Origin: Pseudomonadota bacterium
GTDB taxonomy: Bacteria; Pseudomonadota; Gammaproteobacteria; Steroidobacterales; Woeseiaceae
Direction of reading: 5' to 3'
Assembly: GCA_027618995.1 (NCBI GenBank)
Contig: JAQCGO010000004.1
Coordinates: 62,001 to 126,000 of the forward strand
Length of the DNA: 64,000 nt
Shown here: piece after piece, positions 1-28,806 of the stretch
Position numbering within the stretch: position 1 is the first letter of the stretch
Layout of the letters: every line of letters begins with the position of its first letter
Notes under the pieces: generated by a model
Databases searched by the model: none
Seen by the model: the letters and a program-made list of their open reading frames with translations, nothing else
Told to the model about the DNA's origin: nothing
Position numbers and translations under genes: made by a program

Positions 1-49
1 GCAACTGTTCCACCGCGCGTAATCCAGTGACGTAGTTTGCCTTGCTCAT
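1..49 (-). CDS. rlmB: 23S rRNA 2'-O-methyltransferase RlmB, N-terminal fragment (cut by window edge)
   Basis: Only the first 16 codons are inside the window; they read MSKANYVTGLRAVEQL. The V-x-G-x-x-A-V pattern is the usual N-terminal start of SpoU-family RlmB (E. coli YGIHAVQ). The ATG overlaps the stop of rnr in an ATGA arrangement, so the two are translationally coupled, and rnr-rlmB is the standard gammaproteobacterial order. RlmB methylates the 2'-OH of G2251 in 23S rRNA. The assignment relies on order as much as on the short sequence. Confidence 0.7.
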   Translation of the reverse strand, partial: MSKANYVTGLRAVEQL

Positions 50-2307
50 CGCGAGTTCCGTGCACCTTCCGCAGCCACGGGCCGAAAGTCGATGCGCCGG
101 GTGTCGAGATCCACGCGATGTACGCGCACTCGCATTGCCTCGCCTAACGAAAAGGCTTTGCGCGTACGTTCGCCAATCAGGCGCTGCGAACCCGACTCGT
201 AATGGTAGTAGTCGTTTGCAAGACTGGTCACGTGCACCAATCCGTCGATCTGCAATTCCGTGATCTGTACAAACAAGCCGAAATTTGTAACGCCGGTGAT
301 CACGCCGGCAAATTCTTCGCCAACATGATTCTCCATGTACTCACATTTCAGCCAGGCTTCCACATCGCGCGTTGCCTCCTCGGCACGCCGCTCGTGGGCT
401 GACGTGATAGTTCCGAGGCGTTCCATTTCACCGGCACCATAGGAATAACGCCCCGGCTTGCCGCCGCGGACTATGTGCCGTATTGCCCGATGCACGAGCA
501 GGTCGGGGTAACGCCGTATCGGCGAGGTGAAATGCGCATAGGCGTCCAACGCGAGGCCAAAGTGACCAATGTTCTGCGGTGTGTACTCAGCGTGTGTCAG
601 GGAACGCAACATCGCCATCGATATGGCCGCGCTGTCGGGCCGGCCCTTGACCTGCGCGAGCAAATCATTGAACTGGCGCGGCACGACATGCTTCGGATGC
701 GGCACCTTCAGTCCCAGCGAGAGCAGATACAGGCGCAACTCGTCGAAGCGATCGACATCGGGCTTCGGATGCACACGGTACAAGCCAGGTATCTTGTTCT
801 TGCTCAGAAATTTCGCGGCCTGCACGTTGGCCGCAATCATGCACTCCTCGATCAGTCGATGCGCATCGTTACGGGCTTCGACCTTGATTCCGACGATGGA
901 GCCATCCTCGCCGAGTTCGAACTTGGTCTGCGGCAGATCAAGTTCAATGGCACCGCGACGTTGCCGCACAGTCGCAAACACCTTATACAGCGCATGCAAC
1001 TCGTTAATCACGGGCTGCAGGGCCCGCGGCACGGATGAGTCCGATTTGCCTTCGAGAAAATCACCGACCTGGGTATAGGTCAGCCGCGCCGACGAGCGCA
1101 TCACGGCCTCGGCAAACTTTGCGCGCGTCACCTGGCCGTCACGGCCGACGCGCATATCGCACACCATGCATAGCCGGTCGACTTTCGGATTCAGCGAACA
1201 CAGGCCGTTGGACAAAACCTCGGGCAGCATCGGTACCACACGGTCCGGAAAATACACCGAGGTACCGCGAAGGATCGCCTGCTTGTCCACGGCCGATCCG
1301 ACCTGCACGTAGTGCGCCACATCGGCGATAGCAACCAGCAAGCGCCAACCGTCGCCGCTGCGTTCGCAAAAAACTGCATCGTCAAAATCCCGCGCATCTT
1401 CGCCGTCAATCGTGAGCAGATCGACGCCGCGCAGGTCCAGGCGATCCTTTTTCGCGGCCGACGGCACGTCCACACCAAAGCTCTTGATCTCGTCGCGCAC
1501 GGCTTTCGGCCACTCTGTCGGGATTGAGTGCGACTGGATGGCGATATCGGTCGCAATACCTTTTTGCTTGGGATCGCCGATGATGCGGACGATGCGCCCG
1601 GTTGCCTGCTCAACCTGAGATGGGTAAACGAGGATCTCGGCAACGACGATCTGTCCGGGGCGAGCTTTATTCGATTCGCCGGACGCGATCAGGATGCGAT
1701 GCGCGATCCTGGCGTTGTCAGGAATCACGAGTCCGATGCCGCGTTCACGAATAAACTGGCCGGCAATCTCGCGGACACCGCGCTTGAGAACCTCGACTAG
1801 CTTGCCCTCGGGCTTGCCGCGCCGGTCCTCGCCAATGATTTTGATCGCGACACGGTCACCGTCGAAGACCGAACGCATTTCGCGCGCCGACAGGTAAACA
1901 TCGTCGCCACCATCGTCTCTAACCACGAAGCCGAAGCCATCGCGATGGCCGCTGACTACACCGGCCAGCAGATCCAGCTTGGCCATCAGGCAGAATTCAC
2001 CGCCGCGATTCTCGATCACCTGCCCGGCGTGAACCATCTTGTACAGGCGCTCGACCAGAAGGTCACGCATGCGCTGACCTTTGAGGTCGAGATCGGCCAG
2101 CATCTGATCGGCATTGACCGGCCACCCGGCCGTTTCAAGGTAGCCGAGCAAGGCAGTGCGGTCCGGAATCGGATGCCGGTAATCCTTTGACTTTGATTTG
2201 GCCTTGGTCCCGGTTTTGGCCTTGGGTTTGACCCTGTTCTCGGACTTGGCCCTGGTATTGGCTGCAGCGACCGGCCCGGTGGTTTTTTTGCTTTTCCTAT
2301 TTGCCAA
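46..2307 (-). CDS. rnr: Ribonuclease R
   Basis: A 753-residue 3'-5' processive exoribonuclease of the RNB family that degrades structured RNA. After a lysine-rich N-terminal tail (to about residue 42) come a winged-helix region, cold-shock OB domains (GHRDGFGFV near 121-129), the RNB catalytic domain with the acidic active-site motif DGEDARDFDDA at 301-311, and a C-terminal S1 domain (about 665-745). Length is slightly below the E. coli enzyme. The start is ATG with a strongly basic N-terminus. In E. coli rnr follows nsrR and purA; here about 25 kb of accessory DNA and the split tRNA-Leu separate it from purA. Its stop overlaps the rlmB start. Confidence 0.97.
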   Translation of the reverse strand: MANRKSKKTTGPVAAANTRAKSENRVKPKAKTGTKAKSKSKDYRHPIPDRTALLGYLETAGWPVNADQMLADLDLKGQRMRDLLVERLYKMVHAGQVIENRGGEFCLMAKLDLLAGVVSGHRDGFGFVVRDDGGDDVYLSAREMRSVFDGDRVAIKIIGEDRRGKPEGKLVEVLKRGVREIAGQFIRERGIGLVIPDNARIAHRILIASGESNKARPGQIVVAEILVYPSQVEQATGRIVRIIGDPKQKGIATDIAIQSHSIPTEWPKAVRDEIKSFGVDVPSAAKKDRLDLRGVDLLTIDGEDARDFDDAVFCERSGDGWRLLVAIADVAHYVQVGSAVDKQAILRGTSVYFPDRVVPMLPEVLSNGLCSLNPKVDRLCMVCDMRVGRDGQVTRAKFAEAVMRSSARLTYTQVGDFLEGKSDSSVPRALQPVINELHALYKVFATVRQRRGAIELDLPQTKFELGEDGSIVGIKVEARNDAHRLIEECMIAANVQAAKFLSKNKIPGLYRVHPKPDVDRFDELRLYLLSLGLKVPHPKHVVPRQFNDLLAQVKGRPDSAAISMAMLRSLTHAEYTPQNIGHFGLALDAYAHFTSPIRRYPDLLVHRAIRHIVRGGKPGRYSYGAGEMERLGTITSAHERRAEEATRDVEAWLKCEYMENHVGEEFAGVITGVTNFGLFVQITELQIDGLVHVTSLANDYYHYESGSQRLIGERTRKAFSLGEAMRVRVHRVDLDTRRIDFRPVAAEGARNSR

Positions 2308-2335
2308 ACGATGTAGCCTCTGCGGGTTGCTCTAA

Positions 2336-2364
2336 TTGACTGCCCCACCCGGTTTCAGTAGAGT
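2336..2364 (+). promoter_or_regulatory. Putative sigma-70 promoter of the tRNA-Leu locus
   Basis: TTGACT at 2336-2341 and TAGAGT at 2359-2364 are separated by exactly 17 bp and followed by a G+C-rich discriminator (GCGCTGCC), the form expected of a strongly expressed stable-RNA gene. It points at the orphan tRNA-Leu 5' half at 2421 and, further on, at the intact tRNA-Leu at 2609, for which I see no convincing promoter of its own. Read-through from here may therefore drive the replacement tRNA (inference). Confidence 0.55.
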
Positions 2365-2420
2365 GCGCTGCCTTGCGGGTGCTGGGATTGTACGCGGTTC
2401 TGGCCCGAACAACGCAAATT

Positions 2421-2462
2421 GCCCAGATGGCGGAATTGGTAGACGCGCCAGCTTCAGGTGCT
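2421..2462 (+). pseudogene. 5' half of a split tRNA-Leu(CAG) gene
   Basis: These 42 bases are identical to the first 42 bases of the intact tRNA-Leu at 2609 except for base 7 (A here, G there). They hold the 5' acceptor strand GCCCAGA, the D arm and the anticodon loop with CAG, then break off in the 3' side of the anticodon stem. The acceptor strand GCCCAGA pairs perfectly with TCTGGGC of the orphan 3' half at 9317-9374, not with CCTGGGC of the intact copy, so these two halves were once one gene. Confidence 0.9.
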
Positions 2463-2586
2463 AGTGGGCCTAAGTGACTCGTGATGATTATCTACCGAAG
2501 AATCACGCGGTTACAAGGAGTGGTCGGCCAAGGGTAATGCGACTGGTATCGATTTTGTCGTATCTGCGGTTTGATAGGTTTGTTTG

Positions 2587-2704
2587 ATATCTGATTGGTT
2601 TGTGAAATGCCCAGGTGGCGGAATTGGTAGACGCGCCAGCTTCAGGTGCTGGTTATCGTAAGGTAGTGGAGGTTCAAGTCCTCTCCTGGGCACCAATCAG
2701 ATAT
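2587..2704. repeat. Perfect 13-bp inverted repeat bracketing the intact tRNA-Leu
   Basis: ATATCTGATTGGT at 2587-2599 is the exact reverse complement of ACCAATCAGATAT at 2692-2704. The right arm begins with the discriminator and CCA end of the tRNA. In a precursor RNA the leader could pair with the ACCA end and the trailer, leaving nine unpaired leader bases next to the acceptor stem. It could also be a recombinase-binding arm or chance. Confidence 0.6.
2609..2695 (+). tRNA. tRNA-Leu(CAG), intact, CCA encoded
   Basis: A complete 87-base class II tRNA: acceptor GCCCAGG paired with CCTGGGC, D arm, anticodon loop TTCAGGT giving anticodon CAG, a variable arm, T arm GGTTCAAGTCC, discriminator A and encoded CCA. 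It reads leucine codon CUG. It differs from the split gene at the 7-66 acceptor pair (G-C here, A-T in the split gene) and in the variable arm. It sits inside the insert, so it most likely came with the element and replaced the gene that was cut. Confidence 0.97.
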
Positions 2705-2772
2705 TACAAATTTGTTAGTTCGAAATTGAATTGGATGCTGCCCCTGCATTTACAATTAGGTCGCTGCGGCCA

Positions 2773-3177
2773 CTAGCGACTGAAGAGTTCGCCCATATTG
2801 GATATGTAGTCATCGACGGACAACGTTGGTGGTGCAATCAACTCAGCCAAATCGGTCTCGCCGCGCGCCTGTAATAACCTGCGTGCTGCCATTCGACTCT
2901 CATTGACCGAAACCTTCTTGATACCTAAGACACTTGAGATCCTTTGGATTGCATCGTCATCATCGATCGGTTTTTTACAACCAAGAATCAGCGCCAATCG
3001 AATTAGAGGGGTCGCGGCGCTTTTCAAAATAGCCTCGTCCAAATGAACAAAAGTAATTGTGGGTTTGGTTGCTTTTACGAACAGATAATCACCGAGTTCG
3101 GCATCACAATGGGCAATCGCTTGTCGGAGAGAACCAATCGAAGCGCCAGTTAAAGAAACCTGCGTACAGGTTCGGGT
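2773..3177 (-). pseudogene. Unrecognised reading frame lacking a good start, probably 5'-truncated
   Basis: An open frame of about 134 codons runs from just after an in-frame TAA near 3177 to a stop at 2773. It has no ATG or GTG; the only usable start is TTG at 3042 (89 codons), but the protein-like composition continues upstream of that (for example LRQAIAHCDAELGDYLFV). I do not recognise the family. The C-terminal part is helical and charged. It lies between the replacement tRNA-Leu and the cargo operon, where an integrase or its accessory gene would be expected, but no tyrosine-recombinase motif is present. Confidence 0.35.
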
Positions 3178-4203
3178 TTAGGATGTTGAGCCAAAGGCTG
3201 AACTAAAATGATTCCGCAGATAGGGGCCTGCCAAAACTTTTTCATACCTGGGTTCCCCTCCAGATTCCAAACACGACGGAATACATTCGATCTCTGAGTC
3301 GAAATTCGTATTATGAAAATACGCCATTGATTGTCGTCGGATCGCGTCGCTTTTCAGATTGCTAGATTGGACGACGCGGTGCAATGTTGATACCCATCGA
3401 TCATTGGTCCAACGCGCCAACATGTCACCAATATTTATAATGAAAGCATCATCGACAAGCGGTGCCTTTACCCAACTTCCTGCCGCCAGTTTAAGTTCAA
3501 GTCCGGGTACGGTGGGGTCAGACTTCAAAATCGTAATACTGCCGTAGTCGGTGTGTTCGCCGGCGCTTCTTTGCGTTGGCAATAGGGGTTTGTCGAAGCC
3601 CGGATAGTTTAGGCAACGAAGCGCGTTCATCGGATGCGTGTGAAATTTCTTGAAATAATCATGCGGCATATCGAGCGCCGCAGCGAATAACCTCAATACC
3701 TTTCCGGCCAGCTCCGTCATCTCATTGAAATAAGTCGCCAATGCGATTTCCAACTTGGGAAGCGCTGCGGGCCAAAGGTTTTCGCCAAAATGAAATTCAT
3801 ATTCGGCGGAGGTCAAATCGATCGGCGGCGCCAGTAATGGTCCGATACCGAAACTTTCCTTGACGTCAGGTGGCGTATCGACGCCCATCGATTTTGCCAA
3901 CGCCTCCGATGCCATCGGGAAGTAGCCACGTGGGCACTTCGGGTCGGAAGATTTGGCCGTGAGTTTTTCTTCAAGCGGTAAATCGAAGAAGCCTGTCGTC
4001 TGAACCCACGCATTCTCGATGACTTTTTCGGGCACTCCGTGATTCTCGATAATCAGGAAGCCAGTGCTTCTACAGATATCATCAACACGTGCCGCAATGG
4101 CCGCTTGTTCTATCAGTGTCCCGCAGAGAAAAGCGCCGAGATCAATCGCCTCGATGGCCGGCACCTTTTTTGTTTTCTGCATATTAAATCTCATCGATGT
4201 CAC
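3178..4203 (-). CDS. 2-oxoglutarate/Fe(II) dioxygenase, isopenicillin N synthase-like
   Basis: A 341-residue soluble non-haem iron oxygenase. The N-terminal DIOX_N part has the IENHGVP motif at 52-58. The 2OG-FeII domain shows the iron triad H217-x-D219 (HTDYGS) and H275 (STLHRV), and R290-x-S292 for 2-oxoglutarate binding. The family hydroxylates, desaturates or cyclises small molecules; the substrate is unknown. It is the last gene of the minus-strand cargo operon, 50 bp after the Tat aminotransferase, so an amino acid or derived keto acid is a reasonable guess (inference). The start may be GTG at 4203 or ATG at 4194. A second, distinct member of the family lies at 24273-25232. Confidence 0.88.
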   Translation of the reverse strand: MTSMRFNMQKTKKVPAIEAIDLGAFLCGTLIEQAAIAARVDDICRSTGFLIIENHGVPEKVIENAWVQTTGFFDLPLEEKLTAKSSDPKCPRGYFPMASEALAKSMGVDTPPDVKESFGIGPLLAPPIDLTSAEYEFHFGENLWPAALPKLEIALATYFNEMTELAGKVLRLFAAALDMPHDYFKKFHTHPMNALRCLNYPGFDKPLLPTQRSAGEHTDYGSITILKSDPTVPGLELKLAAGSWVKAPLVDDAFIINIGDMLARWTNDRWVSTLHRVVQSSNLKSDAIRRQSMAYFHNTNFDSEIECIPSCLESGGEPRYEKVLAGPYLRNHFSSAFGSTS

Positions 4204-4253
4204 GATGGAGCAGTATTAACTGAACGCCACAAAGGATAGTCCGAAAATATAAA

Positions 4254-5396
4254 CTATCCGAACAGCCGCTTGTGAATCTGCACGTAGTATTCCATTTCTT
4301 CAGGTTTGGACATGCTGATTCTTGACCATGACGAGTGATACGGCGGAAAATCCCGACCCGTCAGAATTCCATACTCCTGCATCTGTTCCTGATACTTTGC
4401 GTTTTCCATGCCGGTCTGTATGAATGCAAAGTTTGCGTTCGATTTTACATATCGAAGTTCGAGCTCTTCGCACATGTTTTCAACGATGGCTCGTGACTCT
4501 TTGTTCTTCCGAATCACAAACTTTGGAAACTCCGGATCGAGATAACTTGCATAAGCTGCCTCGATGGCAAGTGCGTGAGTTTCACCGGTCTTCATTCCGC
4601 GCATTTTCTCTGCGAGTTCCGGATGAGCAAAGCCGAATCCGATGCGCATCCCGGCCAGGCCATGAATCTTCGAAGCCGTTCTGGCTACAATGATGTTGTT
4701 GTGCCCTGCAGCGACTAGCCCCATCATCGATTCGTAGTCGGGATTGTCGACGAATTCGTGGTATGCCTCGTCGACAAAAACCAGGCGTTCTTTGGACATT
4801 TCCAAAACAAAATTACGCATCGCATCCTTGTTCAGCACGGATGGAATCGGGTTGTTCGGGTTAACCAGGTAGACCATGTCCGTATCGTTGCGGACCGCTG
4901 CGCGCATCGCATCGAGATCGAAGTTCAGACTTTCGTTGACCGGTACCCGTATTATTTCGGCTCCGTGCCTTTGTGCATGTTCCAGCAGGCTCTGGTAGGT
5001 TGGGTCGGCACATACGATTGAGCCATTGTTGCTGGCCGCGATCATTCCGGCAATTCTCAAAATTTCGCTCGAACCGGTACCAACAACGACGTTATCTGTG
5101 GATACGCCATTAATGTCCGCCAAAACTTTGACGAGCGGTTGATCATCGCCGCTGTAGCGATTGAGAAGATACAGGTTTGCGTGAACTGCTTTGAGGGCGA
5201 CCCGCGACGGACCGTACGGATTCTCATTGGCCATGAGTCGAATCATGTAGTCTGGCCGCGGAATGTCCGCCGCCAGCGCATTGCTCATCAATCTCATTTG
5301 GGGCGTTAGTGGCGTCCTCGGTATGGCAGGAATCAGGCCGCTGGCAGCGAATGCGCCTCCGCCGATCAAAATCTGGCGTCTCGTCAAGTTTGTCAT
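4254..5396 (-). CDS. Tat-exported histidinol-phosphate-aminotransferase-like PLP enzyme
   Basis: A 380-residue class I/II (fold type I) aminotransferase closest in style to HisC. The N-terminus is a twin-arginine signal (LTRRQILIGGGAFAAS, residues 4-19). PLP-site motifs follow: NPNNP at 179-183 (HisC normally continues TG; here IP), VDEAYHEF at 208-215, and the Schiff-base lysine K243 in ASKIHGLAGMR with R251. Tat export of a folded PLP enzyme implies a periplasmic transamination, unusual for a biosynthetic enzyme. It lies between an amino-acid permease and a 2OG oxygenase in one operon. Its true substrate is unknown, and the HisC step of histidine synthesis is unlikely because that is cytoplasmic. 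Confidence 0.88.
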   Translation of the reverse strand: MTNLTRRQILIGGGAFAASGLIPAIPRTPLTPQMRLMSNALAADIPRPDYMIRLMANENPYGPSRVALKAVHANLYLLNRYSGDDQPLVKVLADINGVSTDNVVVGTGSSEILRIAGMIAASNNGSIVCADPTYQSLLEHAQRHGAEIIRVPVNESLNFDLDAMRAAVRNDTDMVYLVNPNNPIPSVLNKDAMRNFVLEMSKERLVFVDEAYHEFVDNPDYESMMGLVAAGHNNIIVARTASKIHGLAGMRIGFGFAHPELAEKMRGMKTGETHALAIEAAYASYLDPEFPKFVIRKNKESRAIVENMCEELELRYVKSNANFAFIQTGMENAKYQEQMQEYGILTGRDFPPYHSSWSRISMSKPEEMEYYVQIHKRLFG

Positions 5397-5477
5397 TCTT
5401 TCTCCCTATGGGCTTCCGTTTCGTCAAGTCTGTCCGGCATGCCGACGTAATACCGATCAAAGATTTACTAACTAAGA

Positions 5478-6788
5478 TTACTCATCTTTAACACCAATCC
5501 CCATAATCTTTGATCTCTTTTGAATATATACAATTACCGTAATTATGTAACCGACTATCATCATTCTGCCCGTATTATCGATATCGGAAAAGGCAAGGTT
5601 TGCTTGAACTAACAATATCAGAATGCCAATCACACTTATCTTTTTTAACGCTCTCTCAGACATTCGGAAGTGCGCATTTGCAAATACGTCAGGTAATTTC
5701 TTGGCAAAATAAAATGCGGCAAGTAATGGAACGATATCGTAAATAAACACAAGTCCACTACCCAGCATAATTATGTATCGCATATCTTTACCGGCGAGTA
5801 TCGGTATTGATGCAACGATCAGAAGTAAAGTGAGCATAATGTGTGGCGTATTGAATCTTTTGTTAACAACAGCCAGCCTTTTGGGCAGCCAGCCGTCTTC
5901 ACACGCAATAATCACTGATTTTGTCGCCCAGGAAAATGTCGAATTAATACTGGTTGCGAATGCGAAAAGTGCCGCGCTAACTACAAAAGCAGCATAGAGA
6001 GACGGCGGCAATATCACTCTTGCGACTTCAGTTAATGTCTTTCCTGCTGTTTGTTCAACTGGCAATATACCGACTGCGACAACCGACACGGTTGCTATGA
6101 AAAAGGCCGCAACAAGCGTGCTGTAAATAATCGCGCGGGGCAGATCGTGATGTGGATTCTTCATTTCACCGCCAAGCTCGGAGACATAATAAGCACCCCC
6201 GGTGGCAAAAGACATCAGAACACAAGCCATTCCAAAACCGTACCAACCGTCGGGAAACAGTTTTTCCTGATCAGTAAAGTTGGTGTAATCCACCTCTAAA
6301 ATTCCAAAGAAAATGAGCGAGGATAGCCCACAAAGAAGAAAGACAATCATGACTTTCTGAATTGCAGAAGCCTGTCGAATCCCCAACAGATTTACAATAT
6401 AAAAAGCAAGCAAAACACCGAGTGCAACATATTTCGCGTTTAAATCCGGCAATAAGGCGAGTGCATATTCAGCAAAACCTAATGCGAATAAAGCAATAAG
6501 AAAGTAAGTGACCATCAAAAGCGCGAGAAAGAAAAAGCCAGCCTTTGGCCCTAGAACACGTTTGCAATAGACATAAAGCCCGCCAGTCGCGGGCATTGCC
6601 GAGCCCATAAAAACTACGGGCAGTTGTTTGATGATAGAAAATATTGCCGACAGAACAATGGCAAAGGGTACAGCATAGGCGGTAAAACCAATCCCGATAC
6701 CGATAAGCACCAAAACTCCTGAGCCAATTACCTGACCAAGTGCAATGGCAAAAACATCCCAAAAACCAAGGCTCCTTTTTAAATGCAT
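5478..6788 (-). CDS. APC-superfamily amino acid permease
   Basis: A 436-residue inner-membrane transporter with about 12 hydrophobic segments. The N-terminus SLGFWDVFAIALGQVIGSG is the helix-1 start of the APC (amino acid/polyamine/organocation) family, with the unwound GSG substrate-binding break. It starts 12 bp after the stop of the PLP lyase and is followed after 81 bp by the Tat aminotransferase, so it probably brings in or releases the amino acid handled by this operon. The gene is markedly A+T-rich compared with the housekeeping block, which supports horizontal origin. Substrate specificity cannot be read from the sequence. Confidence 0.88.
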   Translation of the reverse strand: MHLKRSLGFWDVFAIALGQVIGSGVLVLIGIGIGFTAYAVPFAIVLSAIFSIIKQLPVVFMGSAMPATGGLYVYCKRVLGPKAGFFFLALLMVTYFLIALFALGFAEYALALLPDLNAKYVALGVLLAFYIVNLLGIRQASAIQKVMIVFLLCGLSSLIFFGILEVDYTNFTDQEKLFPDGWYGFGMACVLMSFATGGAYYVSELGGEMKNPHHDLPRAIIYSTLVAAFFIATVSVVAVGILPVEQTAGKTLTEVARVILPPSLYAAFVVSAALFAFATSINSTFSWATKSVIIACEDGWLPKRLAVVNKRFNTPHIMLTLLLIVASIPILAGKDMRYIIMLGSGLVFIYDIVPLLAAFYFAKKLPDVFANAHFRMSERALKKISVIGILILLVQANLAFSDIDNTGRMMIVGYIITVIVYIQKRSKIMGIGVKDE

Positions 6789-6800
6789 AAATTTTACTTC

Positions 6801-8000
6801 CTACAAAAGGGCAAGCGCCGCATCAAAATCAGCGATCAAATCTTTTACGTCTTCAAGCCCTGTAGACACTCTGATCATTCCGTCCCGGATTCCCATTTCA
6901 AGTCGCTGCTCAATTGGAATATCAAGAAATGCCATTAATGCCGGAATTTGCGTGGTTGTTCTGACCCCGCCAAGACTGGCGGAGAAGCAGCTAAGCTCAA
7001 GATTATCAAGCACCTTAAGCGCTTCATCACCGTCTTCAACTTCAAAAGTGAGCATACCCCCAAACTTGGGCATCTGTTCTTTGGCAATATGATGTTGAGG
7101 ATGACTTTCAAGGCCTGGGTACCATACCTGCTTCACTGAGGGATGGTTTTCAAAATAAGCAGCAAGGGTAGCCGCAGAGCGACAGGCTCTTTCCAGCCTG
7201 ACACTGAGAGTTTGGATACCGCGCCCCAGCATCCAGGCACTAAACGGCGCAAGTGGTGCGCCCAGTTTTACCATGGTATTCCAGCGAATTTGCTCGAGAA
7301 AATCATCCGGAAGCAATTCCGATTTCATGCATATTGCCCCACCAATCACATCACTATGGCCGCCGATAAATTTTGTTGCGCTTTCCACCACAATATCCAC
7401 GCCAACATCCAGCGGTCTCATTACATAAGGGGAGGCAAATGTATTATCACACACAACAACAATTCCCCGGTCATGTGCGATCTTCACAATAGGCGCGATA
7501 GGCGCCACTTTCATGGACGGGTTGGCGATGGTTTCAAAATAAATCACTTTGGTATTAGGACGGATTGCAGCCTCGATCGCCGCCATATCCGCCGTATCAA
7601 CAAAGGTGGTTTCGATATTGTAATCCGTTAATCGGTGATCAAGCATCTCATGAGTTGAGCTATACGTGGTCCAGTCGCAAACGATGTGATCACCACTTTT
7701 GAGAAGGCCAAGAAGCGTTACTGAGATTGCCGCCATACCGGATGCCGTAGCAAGACAGGCATCCGCTCCTTCAATGACCATCATTTGATCTTCAAACTGA
7801 TATTCGTTGGGATTACCGCATCGGCCATAAATATTTACGGCCTTGCGTTCACCGTCAAGAATACGCTGAAAGATATCGCTATCGTATTGAAAACTGGACG
7901 CCATCACGATCGGCGGCGTTACAGCTTTGGTCGCTTCATCCGGCGGAATATAGGCTGTCTTACTATCAAAGCGAAGATTGTTACGTTTTTCTTTTTTCAT
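6801..8000 (-). CDS. Cystathionine gamma-synthase/lyase-family PLP enzyme
   Basis: A 399-residue Cys/Met metabolism PLP enzyme. It shows the YGR motif at 58-60, SGMA at 87-90 before the cofactor loop, the pyridine-binding D185 (CDNTFASP) and the Schiff-base lysine K210 in ESATKFIGGHS. Methionine gamma-lyases carry a cysteine in the LYGCTF loop; here the loop reads TYSSTHEM, so gamma-lyase or gamma-synthase activity on cystathionine, homocysteine or an O-acyl-homoserine is as likely. It is the first gene of the cargo operon, with a good promoter about 25 bp upstream and a GGGG ribosome-binding run before the ATG. Confidence 0.88.
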   Translation of the reverse strand: MKKEKRNNLRFDSKTAYIPPDEATKAVTPPIVMASSFQYDSDIFQRILDGERKAVNIYGRCGNPNEYQFEDQMMVIEGADACLATASGMAAISVTLLGLLKSGDHIVCDWTTYSSTHEMLDHRLTDYNIETTFVDTADMAAIEAAIRPNTKVIYFETIANPSMKVAPIAPIVKIAHDRGIVVVCDNTFASPYVMRPLDVGVDIVVESATKFIGGHSDVIGGAICMKSELLPDDFLEQIRWNTMVKLGAPLAPFSAWMLGRGIQTLSVRLERACRSAATLAAYFENHPSVKQVWYPGLESHPQHHIAKEQMPKFGGMLTFEVEDGDEALKVLDNLELSCFSASLGGVRTTTQIPALMAFLDIPIEQRLEMGIRDGMIRVSTGLEDVKDLIADFDAALALL

Positions 8001-8385
8001 TGATGGCCCCAGTTTGCTGCAAGTCTATATCCCACCCGATCTTGAATCCAAAAGACAACCAATTGCAAAAGAAGCCATGGCAGAAATCATTGTAATGTCG
8101 TAACTGTTAAAAATGTTATAGCCAAAACGGATAATCGGCGTATAAAACAAATCAACGCTGTTTTGCATCAGAGCGTTCAGTTTGGCAAAAGGTGAATGAA
8201 TGGATTGCCAAGGCCAACGCATACGTAAGAGAATACACTCAGGCTGTTGGTCATTGTAGTTATTTTCGATTATTAATGTGCTCAAAAAGGACTGTCATAG
8301 TGAAGTCAAAATTTACCGTACTTGCTTTACTCCTGTGCACCGCCCGTTTTCTTGCAGAGTCGCCATGTGACTTTAGGTCATCAAG
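8001..8385. other. Intergenic region between the cargo operon and the SDR, with a leader-like short frame
   Basis: This 385-bp stretch has no convincing full-length gene. The operon promoter lies at its left end. At 8300-8389 a GTG with an upstream AAAAAGG opens a 29-codon frame reading like a secretion signal (KSKFTVLALLLCTARFLAES) whose stop overlaps the SDR start. It could be a truncated secreted-protein gene or a leader peptide. An 86-codon minus-strand frame at 8025-8285 shows no family features. Confidence 0.4.
8024..8051 (-). promoter_or_regulatory. Putative sigma-70 promoter of the PLP lyase operon
   Basis: Read on the minus strand, TTGGAT (8051-8046) and TATAGA (8029-8024) are separated by 16 bp and lie a short distance upstream of the ATG at 8000. 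This would transcribe the lyase, permease, aminotransferase and oxygenase as one message. Confidence 0.45.
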
Positions 8386-9168
8386 GTGATTACGCCAAGC
8401 GTAGCGGATCTGCTCAGCCTGCGTGACAAAGTCGCCGTGGTCACGGGCGCCTCGCAAGGCATAGGCGCCGGAATCGCACTGCGTCTGGCCGAGGCCGGTG
8501 CGATGACAGTCGTCCACTATCGAAGCAATGAGGCTGGTGCAAACGCCGTTGTCGACGAAATTCGTGCTGCAAATGGTGAAGCCATAGCGCTGGGCGCCCG
8601 CCTGGAAGATGAGTCCGCTACCAAGGTGTTTATTGACCAAATCAACCACAAATACAAGTCGATCGATGTCCTGGTAAACAACGCGGGTGTTTTCCCGAGC
8701 AAGCCATTCCTGGAAATGTCGCTTAAGGATTGGAATGAGATGTTCTCGGCAAACGTCGATACAGCTTTCAACTGTTCGAAATTTACGGCGAATGCTATGA
8801 AAGCGGCAGACGGCGGGACAATCGTGAATGTCGCATCGATATCTGCGTTGTGCCCCGGCGATAACCATAGCCATTACAACAGCAGCAAAGCTGCGATGGT
8901 CATGATGACGCGTTCAATGGCGAAAGAACTTGCCCGGCACGGCATTCGCGTTAATGCAGTCTCACCGGGGCTGATTGATAGCGATCGACTACCGCAGGAC
9001 TGGCCGGAAGGGGTTGCGCGTTGGAAAGAGAATGCACCGCTTGGGGTCTTGGGTCAGGCGAGTGATGTGGCGGACGCGTGCTTGTTTCTATGCACCGCAG
9101 CTTCCCGCTTCATCACAGGCCACAACCTGGTGGTCGATGGCGGCATAATGTCGACCGATTTGTACTGA
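8386..9168 (+). CDS. SDR-family NAD(P)-dependent oxidoreductase
   Basis: A 260-residue classical short-chain dehydrogenase/reductase. The cofactor motif TGASQGIG is at 20-27, NNAG at 98-101, the catalytic serine in NVASISA (about 151-153), Y164 and K168 (HYNSSKAA). The C-terminus ends in the ITGHNLVVDGG pattern typical of 3-oxoacyl-reductase-like SDRs. The GTG start at 8386 has AGGT about 7 bases upstream. It is divergent from the cargo operon and is the last gene before the right edge of the tRNA-Leu insert. The substrate is unknown; its base composition is nearer the host's than the permease gene's. Confidence 0.85.
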   Translation: MITPSVADLLSLRDKVAVVTGASQGIGAGIALRLAEAGAMTVVHYRSNEAGANAVVDEIRAANGEAIALGARLEDESATKVFIDQINHKYKSIDVLVNNAGVFPSKPFLEMSLKDWNEMFSANVDTAFNCSKFTANAMKAADGGTIVNVASISALCPGDNHSHYNSSKAAMVMMTRSMAKELARHGIRVNAVSPGLIDSDRLPQDWPEGVARWKENAPLGVLGQASDVADACLFLCTAASRFITGHNLVVDGGIMSTDLY

Positions 9169-9316
9169 CGGTAAATACGACCGGCAGAGATTTAGGGTCA
9201 AACCGGTACGACTTTCGGTATGGCCACTATCCCCACAGTTATCACATGGTTACTGCCCACCCGTTGTTAACCGATTGTTTTCCCGCAGTATGGGCGGGAT
9301 TGCCCACGGGATACGT

Positions 9317-9374
9317 AGCTTCAGGTGCTGGTTATCGAAAGGTAGTGGAGGTTCAAGTCCTCTTCTGGGCACCA
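9317..9374 (+). pseudogene. 3' half of the split tRNA-Leu(CAG) gene
   Basis: These 58 bases match 2638-2695 of the intact tRNA-Leu with two differences, one in the variable arm (A for T) and one in the acceptor (TCTGGGC for CCTGGGC). They hold the anticodon loop and 3' anticodon stem, variable arm, T arm and ACCA end. There is no 5' half upstream. The acceptor change restores pairing with the orphan 5' half at 2421-2462, so it marks the right junction of the insert. The next 70 bp up to the CRTAC1 stop hold nothing recognisable. Confidence 0.9.
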
Positions 9375-9444: not shown

Positions 9445-11460
9445 TCAATTAGATTGGTCGGGCCTCGATCTTTGCAGTTGATAACTGTGGCCCGCCGCAA
9501 AAGGCCCGGGAATTTCCGTCTTTCCGCCGGTTGACCAACTTATTTCCATTCGTTCGATGCGGTCATACTGTCCCAGACCGAAGTGAACCAATGGTTCGTC
9601 GAACGATATATAGCCGCCGCTGGCCTTTAGCTCACGCATTTGATGCCGCTCTCCGCCACTTCCATAATGAACGGTGAACTTTGTGCCAATCCCGTCCCGA
9701 TTGCCGACTTCGTCGCGCAGTCGAAAAACAATACTGTTGCCTTTCTGCGTATTGTTTCGCAATAGCCAAAGCGGTCCGTTGACCGAGTTGGTGACAAAAT
9801 CCAGGTCGCCATCGCGGTCGAAGTCCAGCGTCGTATAGGCGCTGACTATCATGAAATTTTGTAGGCCAAAGGCGTCGGTCTGGTCACTGAAGCGCTTGCC
9901 GCCCTCGTTGTGAAAAAAGAAATTTGCTGTCGTTCCCGAGGGAGTTGCCCGAAACCACGAGCCGGCAGCAACATATATATCCTGCCACTCATCGTTGTCG
10001 ACATCGGCAAAGCGCGCGTTCCAGCTCCAGCCAGTGAAGCCCACACCAAGTCGTTTCGACTCATCCGTGAAGCGCTTATTGCCTGCATCCCAGGCCAGGA
10101 AGACATTTTCGTTCATGCGCTGCGGAATCGCCTGTTCCAGCATGTCCGGGTCATGCGGCGGTACCTCTTCGAAAAAATTAATGCACAAGGCATGAGCACG
10201 GGTTTCAGTATCCGGGATTGAGCCACACAAACCGCGATCCTGCATGCGGTGAGCGGACATCATGACCTGCATCCCGACACAGGATCGCCGATCCAGTTCG
10301 TCGGCCACCTCGCTACAGTTGCGAACATTCGATGGTTTATGATTGGATCCGTAGAAAAAGCCCTGCCGCGTCGCCATATTGACGACACAACGGTCGCGAA
10401 CTTCCTGCACCTGAATATCATCGCAGTAATGCTCCAGCGGCAGCATTTGTATTCTGGCGGAAGGCCCGGTGGCACGAGCCGTTATCTGATCGATGAATAT
10501 ATCGAGATCGAGGTCATTGTCGAAGTCGGCAGTATCGATACTCATCGTCGTATTCGTCGAATACGGAATCAGGCCCTCGCCTCTTTCGATTAGTTCGAAA
10601 CCACCTTTACCGTCACCACGATAGAAGTGATCCGGTTCGTCGAAATCGTTACCGACAATCAGATCGAGCCAACCGTCTCCACTCCAGTCCGACAATAAGG
10701 TGCTCAGCGTCTCCCCTATCAGTTCGACCAGCGGCGTTATTGAAAAATGATCGCCTTCATTGATCCAAAGCTCGTTCTGCGCGTGGGGCGGCGGCTGCTT
10801 CTTGCTTGCGCCGGCAAACCAGTTGCCGATGACAGCGTCCAGATCACCATCGCGATCGACATCGCCGAAAGCCACAGCCGCGCTCAGCACGGATTTGCCA
10901 CGCGGCGGTTGCCGCAATCCGGCTGATGAGAATGCGCCCTTATCGCTCAGCAGGTAGAAGTTGCCCTGCAAGTAGGTCGTGCCGAATATGTCCAGCCAGC
11001 CATCGTTATCGAGATCGACCAGGACAGCGTTGAATATCGCTGTGTCGTCCTGCCCCGTGACATCGATTTCCAATGGTACAAAACGCTGACCGTTCTGATT
11101 AATGAAAATAGTGATCAGCCGGCCGTTTGCCGACAGTATGTCCGGCCAACCGTCTCTGTTTATGTCGCCAGACGATATTCCACCACCGTTAAAAAACGGC
11201 GGATAAAAGTCGCGCGGGCTGAACAGATTGGCCTGATGCAGGCCGAATAAACTGCCGTCGTAGCGGGTAACGGGCACGTCTTCCGTTCCCGCGCGTGGTT
11301 GAAATACCGTCGCACTAAGGGAGACGAGGTTGCCATGCGGATCCTTTGTTGGCGCAGTCTGACCACCGGACTCGGCGGCCAAAACCAACAGGCCGATGAC
11401 ACTCGTGAATAGTATCCGCAGTCCGGACTGGGGTTTCCGGTACCGAAATCTCATCGTCAT
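9445..11460 (-). CDS. Secreted CRTAC1-family protein (FG-GAP repeats plus ASPIC/UnbV domain)
   Basis: A 671-residue exported beta-propeller protein. After a signal peptide (hydrophobic 15-30) come several FG-GAP blades with calcium-type loops such as DINRDGWPD, DLDNDGWLD, DVDRDGDLD, DWSGDGWLD and DFDRDGDLD. The C-terminal ASPIC/UnbV domain contains GIGTKFTVHYGSGG and HFGLGQYDRIE. Between blades in the middle there is an insertion holding six cysteines (contexts HYCDD, DRCVV, RNCSE, RSCVG, GLCGS, ALCIN), suggesting disulfides in the periplasm or outside the cell. Its ATG directly follows the stop of the upstream permease, so the two are coupled. CRTAC1 proteins are poorly characterised; binding or adhesion roles are usually proposed. 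Confidence 0.85.
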   Translation of the reverse strand: MTMRFRYRKPQSGLRILFTSVIGLLVLAAESGGQTAPTKDPHGNLVSLSATVFQPRAGTEDVPVTRYDGSLFGLHQANLFSPRDFYPPFFNGGGISSGDINRDGWPDILSANGRLITIFINQNGQRFVPLEIDVTGQDDTAIFNAVLVDLDNDGWLDIFGTTYLQGNFYLLSDKGAFSSAGLRQPPRGKSVLSAAVAFGDVDRDGDLDAVIGNWFAGASKKQPPPHAQNELWINEGDHFSITPLVELIGETLSTLLSDWSGDGWLDLIVGNDFDEPDHFYRGDGKGGFELIERGEGLIPYSTNTTMSIDTADFDNDLDLDIFIDQITARATGPSARIQMLPLEHYCDDIQVQEVRDRCVVNMATRQGFFYGSNHKPSNVRNCSEVADELDRRSCVGMQVMMSAHRMQDRGLCGSIPDTETRAHALCINFFEEVPPHDPDMLEQAIPQRMNENVFLAWDAGNKRFTDESKRLGVGFTGWSWNARFADVDNDEWQDIYVAAGSWFRATPSGTTANFFFHNEGGKRFSDQTDAFGLQNFMIVSAYTTLDFDRDGDLDFVTNSVNGPLWLLRNNTQKGNSIVFRLRDEVGNRDGIGTKFTVHYGSGGERHQMRELKASGGYISFDEPLVHFGLGQYDRIERMEISWSTGGKTEIPGPFAAGHSYQLQRSRPDQSN

Positions 11461-12591
11461 CTAAAGTTCCTGATTCAGATATTCCAGCATGTCCCGAATG
11501 TCAGCCTGGTGAATCTCATCCGCAATGAAACCGCCGACGATCCCCAGCAGCACGAGCACGGCAGTCACTACCACAGCAACGCGTGGTGAAATTGAATTCC
11601 ATACGATGAAGAACGGGTAGACACTGAAGATTCCGAGCGTAAATAGCAGGGTCATCGAATAAATCATTGGCGCACCGGCGGAAACCAGTACCGCAACCAG
11701 AACCAGATCAAACGCTATCGGCACGGGCAAAAAAATCCCAATCAGCGCTACAGCACCCACCGAAAAAATAGTTGGCTCATGTTCTAACAGGCTGGATATC
11801 GGCACGAGGTGCACCACAACCGCCCCTAGCAGACCCGCGAGCAGCATCAGGGGAACCGTTCGAACAACGATATAGCCGATATTGCGCAACAAGATCGACG
11901 CCACTGTACGAGCGGCCCCTGGCCAGCTTTCATTCGGAGGCGCCGGCACGGACGGTTGGACCGCGCAGACGGCGTCGTCGTACGTCGGTGCCCGCTCCCT
12001 GCTAAAAACGAAGCGCGACAACAGCGGCACCAGGACGAGGATGAACAAGAGCGTCAACGAGAGCTTGACGGCTATCAGGTATGGCGGAAATAGTGCAAAC
12101 AGCATGCTCAGAACGATGACATTCAATGTCGGTGAACTGAACATGGTCGCCAGCGTGGTCTCAAGCCGGGCGCCACCGTCATGCATGCCCTTCGCCACCG
12201 GAGCAGCGCAGTTTACGCACACTCCGAGCGGTGCGCCGACCGCCACACCCAGCAACGTGTTGACAACGCCGTTTCGGTGTCCGCGAGTCGCTATAAGACC
12301 GACCAGCGTTAACAGGCACGCACCGATCATCAAGCCGAATGCCATGCCCTCAAGATTGGTCTCGATCCAGTTAATTGTTGTATAGCCAATTCGCTTTGCG
12401 GCACCGTCGCCGGGCTGAATTTGTATGGACGCCTCAAATGACAATGGGTCCTCAAGCGCAGCAGACCCGCCCATGATCGCTTTTTCGTCGAGCGACGGAT
12501 AGCGCGATCCACTCCAGAACGTTATTGCCGTCAAAGCAATGACCAGGACCAGGATAAGGACTCGCTTGTTCAATCTAATCGCCACGTGCAC
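11461..12591 (-). CDS. ArsP/SO_0444-like permease (DUF318)
   Basis: A 376-residue inner-membrane protein with about 8-10 transmembrane segments. The motif GVCVNCAAPVAKG, with a Cys-x-x-Cys in a membrane segment, is the hallmark of the SO_0444/ArsP permease family that exports trivalent organoarsenicals and possibly related thiophilic compounds. A long periplasmic loop follows helix 1. It lies immediately upstream of the CRTAC1 gene (stop and start abut), and only 62 bp separate it from the divergent hydrolase at 12654. The start is GTG. Its real substrate is unknown; no ArsR or other ars gene is nearby. Confidence 0.78.
   Translation of the reverse strand: MHVAIRLNKRVLILVLVIALTAITFWSGSRYPSLDEKAIMGGSAALEDPLSFEASIQIQPGDGAAKRIGYTTINWIETNLEGMAFGLMIGACLLTLVGLIATRGHRNGVVNTLLGVAVGAPLGVCVNCAAPVAKGMHDGGARLETTLATMFSSPTLNVIVLSMLFALFPPYLIAVKLSLTLLFILVLVPLLSRFVFSRERAPTYDDAVCAVQPSVPAPPNESWPGAARTVASILLRNIGYIVVRTVPLMLLAGLLGAVVVHLVPISSLLEHEPTIFSVGAVALIGIFLPVPIAFDLVLVAVLVSAGAPMIYSMTLLFTLGIFSVYPFFIVWNSISPRVAVVVTAVLVLLGIVGGFIADEIHQADIRDMLEYLNQEL

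Positions 12592-27307: not shown

Positions 27308-27308
<1 letters not shown>
26229..27308 (-). CDS. Patatin-like phospholipase family protein
   Basis: A 359-residue protein with the nucleophile elbow GASGGAK (serine) and the catalytic aspartate motif YRDGGVID of the patatin Ser-Asp dyad. I see no signal peptide, so it is probably cytoplasmic. The start was set to GTG at 27308, which shares its G with the TAG stop of purA (TAGTG); the longer frame to 27500 would lie inside purA. Patatins hydrolyse lipid acyl esters. It is the last gene of the purA transcript, an accessory addition to the housekeeping operon. Confidence 0.72.

Positions 27309-28806
<1,498 letters not shown>

Follow-up and report, generated by a model that had tools for sequence, protein, structure and literature searches.

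In the Islander work on tRNA and tmRNA islands (PMC4383910), the attachment site of an element (attP) measures about 250 bp, anticodon-centred tRNA sites are listed, and the search relies on a restored tRNA gene, with candidates discarded when they have no integrase. A review likewise states, in its passage on integration, that conservative recombination reconstitutes an intact tRNA gene after integration (PMC8371274), and in the pertinent part of PMC3146451 the integrase-less ssrA islands of Dehalococcoides are suggested to be cis-mobilizable elements (CIMEs). Here we analyzed the window, a 64,000-nucleotide stretch of a Woeseiaceae genome (2.54 Mb, 76 contigs, 97% complete) in which a tRNA-Leu(CAG) gene is cut in two by a 6.9-kb insert at positions 2463-9316. 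The insert is probably an integrated mobile element that belongs to a cargo-carrying family. Its ends would form an attP, its integrase would be supplied in trans and its tRNA would be expressed by read-through.

Within the host tRNA-Leu(CAG) gene behind rnr, the element interrupts the anticodon stem-loop and is flanked by the host 5′ half on its left and the 3′ half on its right. It is composed of a left end (LE), a complete tRNA-Leu(CAG), cargo and a right end (RE), and the combination of LE and tRNA recurs elsewhere. The parts of the split gene and of the element ends are as follows.

2336 to 2364, plus strand: promoter-like site of the host tRNA, TTGACT-17-TAGAGT, found by a consensus scan
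2421 to 2462, plus strand: 5′ half of the host tRNA-Leu(CAG), from own-genome BLAST and acceptor pairing
2450 to 2462, plus strand: left copy of a 13-bp core in the anticodon stem-loop, identical to 9317-9329
2463 to 2608, plus strand: LE of about 143 bp (143-146), from a 14-copy alignment; putative attP arm
2609 to 2695, plus strand: intact tRNA-Leu(CAG) within the insert, from ARAGORN and own-genome BLAST
9190 to 9316, plus strand: RE of 127 bp, from its match to the G065 right end; putative other arm of attP
9317 to 9329, plus strand: right copy of the 13-bp core, identical to the left copy
9317 to 9374, plus strand: 3′ half of the host tRNA-Leu(CAG), from own-genome BLAST and acceptor pairing

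A BLAST search of the own genome with the intact tRNA recovered both halves beyond chance, the 3′ half aligning along 58 nt with 97% identity (E = 1.5e-21) and the 5′ half along 45 nt with 96% (E = 1.8e-14); the tRNA likeness of the 5′ half extends a few bases beyond the core. Together with ARAGORN, this search reproduced the positions of the two halves and the intact tRNA given in an earlier note made from the letters of this DNA alone. The same note had claimed a common 13-bp core, and AGCTTCAGGTGCT is identical at 2450-2462 and 9317-9329. Its claim that the acceptor strands of the halves pair with each other while the intact copy has a compensating pair also holds (GCCCAGA/TCTGGGC versus GCCCAGG/CCTGGGC). 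That the halves were formerly one gene, and the intact copy a separate one, is borne out by the unbroken single tRNAs of relatives: the joined halves match the one in G031 (G numbers denote genomes) at 91% over 162 bp, upstream flank included, and the one in G032 at 98% over 88 bp, covering the tRNA alone.

We examined 29 tRNA loci of relatives, 27 of them with 300 bp of upstream sequence. A 5′ half upstream of the tRNA is absent in 20 of these 27 loci (14 in the same genus, 6 in other families) and present in 7. The tandem intact copy at insert-free sites, which by the earlier note would refute its claim, was not seen in the five empty relatives with several kb of sequence (G001, G018, G031, G032, G033), where one copy only was found. 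Behind the single tRNA of G018 comes DNA resembling the right flank of the insert (window 9500-12545). The note had also expected an unbroken tRNA with the acceptor GCCCAGA/TCTGGGC in insert-free relatives. A single tRNA does stand behind rnr, but the nearest relatives have other acceptors, with G at position 7 (G031, GCCCAGG/TCTGGGC; G032, GCCCAGG/CCTGGGC), which speaks against the strict form of our reading; the A at position 7 of the 5′ half could thus be a later change. An unbroken GCCCAGA/TCTGGGC gene, with the A-T pair, is present in G035. Two sites are not clean: in G008 and G021 the tRNA lies at two contig ends, the G008 case being a 99-bp contig overlap.

The earlier note held that the element brings its own whole tRNA, and the arrangement was found again in other genomes. 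A pattern derived from LE and run against a collection of genome contigs matched 13 stretches, 10 of which have the arrangement of 5′ half plus LE; the pattern matches L080, L086 and L087 were dropped as chance. In all, 16 genomes have rnr, the promoter, a 5′ half or its remnant, LE or its remnant and an intact tRNA-Leu(CAG), the kind of element with a complete tRNA-Leu that the note had proposed to look for (window, G003, G006, G010, G013, G014, G027, G029, G060, G062, G063, G064, G065, G105, G146, G188). The carriers are recorded as metagenome-assembled genomes (MAGs) of Woeseiaceae, Chromatiales, Gammaproteobacteria or Proteobacteria. A search with LE and RE, own genome included, was positive in 16 of 396 genomes of the order, 15 of 107 of the family and 1 of 369 of the class; the query does not pick up G003, G010 and G027, whose LE is diverged or deleted. 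The intact tRNA is an identical 87-nt sequence in 8 of 17 copies, and an 86-nt form occurs in G063 and G286.

A linked 3′ half fitting the 5′ half is kept in three genomes: the window's, G065 and G060. The clearest case is G065, where a 2.3-kb element with a single long open reading frame (ORF; 382 aa), different from the window's cargo, separates host-type halves (GCCGAGG/TTCTCGGC) and carries an intact tRNA of another type (GCCCAGG/CCTGGGC). The joined halves and flanks of G065 match an unbroken site in G023 at 91% over 161 bp, extending past the tRNA. G008 was rejected as a clean empty site for G065: its left flank plus tRNA are 95% identical along 239 bp, but the tRNA is succeeded by 1.4 kb of different DNA. 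G023, partly N-masked upstream, is the cleaner of the two. The extra 1.4 kb of G008 (L134:100-1545, contig C195) lies between an intact tRNA-Leu(CAG) and an apparent decayed tRNA 3′ end, and is a conventional island or else an element that lost its left end by recombination between tRNA copies. G060 provides a 1.6-kb case with decayed halves (GCCGA/TCGGC) flanking an intact GCCCAGG..CCTGGGC gene. The contig of G061 stops within LE, beside rnr, and the 3′ half of G063 lies on an unlinked contig.

In G188, contig C10 has two right ends 4.5 kb apart (L111:812-1000 and 5341-5532), each with a tRNA-Leu 3′ half behind it and, by eye, a terminator-like hairpin. The doubled right ends suggest stacked insertions, tandem or nested; the contigs of G188 do not join. 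In G286, the core, LE and an intact 86-nt tRNA-Leu(CAG) stand at L115:3268-3512 (contig C183), at another location or in a rearranged copy. In G301, a right end (L114:2966-3085, contig C438) stops at GGGATACG, and unrelated sequence begins there in place of the tRNA core.

Were the locus an ordinary tRNA island, 2609 would be the start of the restored host tRNA, 9317 that of a displaced fragment and 2421 that of a later local duplication. Such an explanation is improbable. It draws on the classic signature of an intact tRNA plus a 3′ fragment, as given in PMC4383910, on the conventional-looking integrase islands that the own genome has behind tRNA-Leu(TAA) and the tmRNA gene, and on the window's intact tRNA sharing its type with the tRNAs of G001, G031 and G032. 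It does not account for the recurrence of the extra 5′ half plus LE in other genomes or for G065, where both halves are host-type and the intact gene is of another type, and the window's 3′ half is closer, at position 66, to the G031 gene than to the intact copy. A carried whole tRNA is the better reading because the arrangement recurs in other genomes.

The ends of the element are conserved. In an alignment of 14 of the 17 copies of LE (G010, G027 and G188 left out), mean column identity is 70%, and RE is identical between the window and G065 at 112 of 127 positions (88%); further copies of RE occur in G188 (two) and G301 (one). Since the site is centred on the anticodon loop and stem and has conserved arms of 143 and 127 bp, LE, core and RE together (about 280 bp) may, by analogy, be the attP of a tyrosine integrase. 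Phage and plasmid records gave no match to LE or RE (plasmid matches cover the tRNA part only), and no exact pattern match was found in viral contigs.

We also considered whether LE is a structured RNA or an intron-like element rather than a recombination site, which we regard as very improbable. LE does contain dyads, and RNAalifold predicts 21 pairs, 4 of them with changes on both sides at least once. Against this, the covariation term is only -0.35, and single folds are no better than those of shuffled sequences (window, z = 0.27, 119 of 200 shuffles as good; G065, z = -1.05, 29 of 200). An Rfam scan of window 2300-2800 returned the tRNA plus one match far below the gathering score, and no intron family between the halves within the part scanned.

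The statement of the earlier note that no integrase remains stood up in the window. Among the matches listed (E ≤ 1e-5), none to PF00589 lies on its contig; the six ORFs of the insert gave Pfam matches for five, none of them to a recombinase or transfer family, and no match for the sixth (89 aa). The integrase search (PF00589, E ≤ 1e-5) covered 48 genomes (11 + 6 + 7 + 24); for 11 genomes of the last batch of 24 the CAG site was not located, so proximity was not judged there. No integrase was seen in any copy with this family, a search in which serine recombinases were not included and a very diverged recombinase could be missed; copies that end at contig ends (e.g., G003, G061, G062, G063, G188) could also conceal one. 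Nearest to a site is a tyrosine recombinase fragment 8.4 kb past the tRNA (G010:C81). Other matches on site-bearing contigs lie about 50-110 kb off (G013:C69, G064:C32, G009:C19, G105:C1). Because none was found in the copies seen, an integrase acting in trans is proposed. The own genome has seven PF00589 matches; of five examined, one is behind tRNA-Leu(TAA), one behind tmRNA and three elsewhere. Compared with these five and seven further recombinase regions, LE and RE gave a sole match of 18 nt (E = 0.95). Directly behind tRNA-Leu(TAA), tyrosine integrases of 346/347 aa occur at L123:4143-5385 (own genome, G000:C42) and L128:364-1610 (G015:C71), in conventional-looking islands.

The lack of an integrase in any copy, the many copies with decayed halves or without RE and the recombinase fragment of G010 would also fit a decayed family of once-autonomous integrative islands, a CIME-like remnant that lost its integrase and by now persists mainly through inheritance or through shuffling by homologous recombination; the relevant section of PMC5704250 describes CIMEs as products of decay. 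Against such a history, which we think unlikely, G065 looks fresh, with both ends and both halves within 2.3 kb and no integrase match on its contig; the likeness among copies of LE is independent of their hosts; cargo transfer is recent; and decay leaves the whole-tRNA design unexplained.

The insert carries about 6.5 kb between the intact tRNA and RE, occupied by five cargo genes, and has a G+C content of 48%, compared with 59% on its left side and 57% on its right. The gene purA (27308-28600) lies about 18 kb past the 3′ half, with other genes intervening. Neighbouring and cargo genes are as follows.

46 to 2307, minus strand: 753-aa ORF, presumably rnr (ribonuclease R), as named in the earlier note; left neighbour of the target tRNA, its tblastn homologues adjoining the tRNA in relatives
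3178 to 4203, minus strand: cargo, 2-oxoglutarate-Fe(II) oxygenase (PF14226/PF03171)
4254 to 5396, minus strand: cargo, class I/II aminotransferase (PF00155)
5478 to 6788, minus strand: cargo, amino-acid permease (PF13520)
6801 to 8000, minus strand: cargo, Cys/Met-metabolism pyridoxal-phosphate enzyme (PF01053)
8386 to 9168, plus strand: cargo, short-chain dehydrogenase/reductase (PF13561/PF00106)
9445 to 11460, minus strand: FG-GAP/ASPIC protein, first resident gene on the right (Pfam scan)

LE and part of the cargo are common to distantly related hosts. Window cargo at 3152-4166 and 5474-8877 has 95-96% identity to the DNA that G003 carries at this site, the permease lying in a block of 96%, and a cargo piece reaching 9191 is 94% identical in G010, where it is on a separate contig that continues to purA. 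The aminotransferase (4254 to 5396) has no counterpart between the blocks of cargo that match in G003 and G010. The rnr genes of these cargo-sharing hosts are 69% identical to that of the window. Identity of LE does not follow that of rnr (Mantel r = -0.21 for 13 genomes, G286 being excluded for want of an rnr neighbour; 0.007, p = 0.48, for 11, without G146 and G003). For example, G146, from another family of the order, and G064 share 51% of rnr amino acids and 85% of LE, and G064 and G065 share 66% of rnr and 95% of LE. As LE likeness is independent of host kinship and cargo is 94-96% identical where rnr is 69%, the unit moves horizontally. In G003 and G010 the same interval is also filled by other genes (L046:6775-8776, L074:1179-6735), which we take to be a psuG/psuK-like pair and a peptide-type ABC transporter operon.

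A promoter-like site TTGAC[A/T]-17/18-TANAGT is present in all 15 copies tested that are inserted beside rnr, as well as at all four empty sites tested, and is retained even in copies whose 5′ half has decayed or is largely missing (G006, G027, G188); it is absent from G286, which is not at rnr. Matches inside LE are weak (8-9 of 12 positions), found in 11 of 15 copies and at varying places; they tell against our reading insofar as the intact tRNA could have its own promoter within LE. With the upstream site kept in 15 of 15 copies and the LE matches weak and scattered, read-through of the intact tRNA from the host tRNA promoter is likely. The remaining Leu tRNAs found in the own genome read TAG, CAA, GAG and TAA, and the gene of the element is therefore the only CAG tRNA seen. 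A TAG tRNA may also read CUG, so the cell's need for the CAG gene may be less than complete.

In the mechanism that we propose, a circle would join the host tRNA by crossover in the core, with a tyrosine integrase supplied in trans. As attP, whose left arm starts directly after the anticodon stem, would bring no missing tRNA half, the host gene would stay broken, and the element's whole tRNA would be read from the host tRNA promoter and released by normal tRNA processing. Precise excision would restore the host gene; a sloppy deletion would cost the cell its sole CAG tRNA seen, so that retention of the element would be favoured. In a wider version, the elements may be an integrase-less passenger family that uses the integrase of another element, seizes the host promoter and enforces dependence, with the carried tRNA as the next landing site, so that insertions stack and the tRNA spreads between lineages; this is a genuine possibility, albeit one that we would not expect to prove right in full.

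Several observations weigh against the reading of the insert as a mobile element with ends, helper and read-through as proposed. Excision, a circular form and a helper were not seen. The halves and both ends occur together in the window and G065 only; most copies are without a linked 3′ half or RE within the sequence examined, and the genomes are for the most part fragmented MAGs. The 87-nt tRNA common to 8 of the 17 copies is also that of G039, a genome of another family in which a 5′ half was not found, and is therefore not private to the elements; the window's own intact tRNA, in turn, is identical to the tRNA of the empty G001. LE lacks the tRNA 5′ half, promoter and rnr on its left in G286, RE lacks a core after it in G301, and LE is strongly diverged in G003 and G010 and partly deleted in G027 and G188. 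A 13-bp motif common to LE and RE is at chance level, its score being reached by 195 of 300 shuffles for the window and 166 of 300 for G065. Finally, LE likeness could stem partly from selection, and homologous recombination can be the route for cargo.

The finding is larger than the earlier note stated: the locus belongs to a recurring, horizontally moving family whose members supply a complete tRNA while the host's own stays broken. The canonical features of tRNA islands are present in part: the target tRNA is split, a fragment is displaced and relatives have an empty site. However, the left junction passes from the 5′ half into LE rather than a 3′ half, and the search of the insert yielded no integrase, the other copies, several of them cut by contig ends, having only the G010 fragment near a site. 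Because these two defining features are lacking, we file the family as a variant of tRNA-targeting islands outside the canonical kind. Such elements fit neither the restored-gene nor the integrase-present expectation and would therefore be missed or misread. They would also offer a simple route by which a foreign tRNA replaces the host's and make loss of the element costly. We met no description of an integrase-less family carrying a whole tRNA in the literature searched, which mostly excludes subscription papers.

Among described systems, the Islander islands (PMC4383910) are alike in anticodon-loop insertion, a flanking fragment, cargo and an unbroken site in relatives, but there the tRNA fragment of attP restores the gene, whereas here the gene is broken, no integrase was found and the element has a whole tRNA about 146 bp in from the junction. 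In the archaeal pTN3-like elements, as summarized in PMC8371274, the tRNA is still restored at the junction and is read from the integrase promoter. CIMEs, as covered in the relevant section of PMC5704250, keep attL and attR and have no integrase or transfer genes found; the window similarly has two core copies with LE and RE and no matched integration or transfer family. CIMEs are integrative and conjugative or integrative and mobilizable elements that lost genes, whereas here no parent is known and the unit contains a complete replacement tRNA. Tycheposons, compared through second-hand description (PMC10872708, PMC11389934), are cargo elements with a tRNA at the border, as here, but have their own tyrosine recombinase, which PF00589 did not find in our elements, although a diverged one could be missed. 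Miniature inverted-repeat transposable elements and clusters of attC sites lacking integron integrases, in the passages of PMC11389934 that treat them, are moved by an enzyme made elsewhere, as we propose for this family; their ends are different, and the elements described here carry protein-coding cargo and a tRNA gene.

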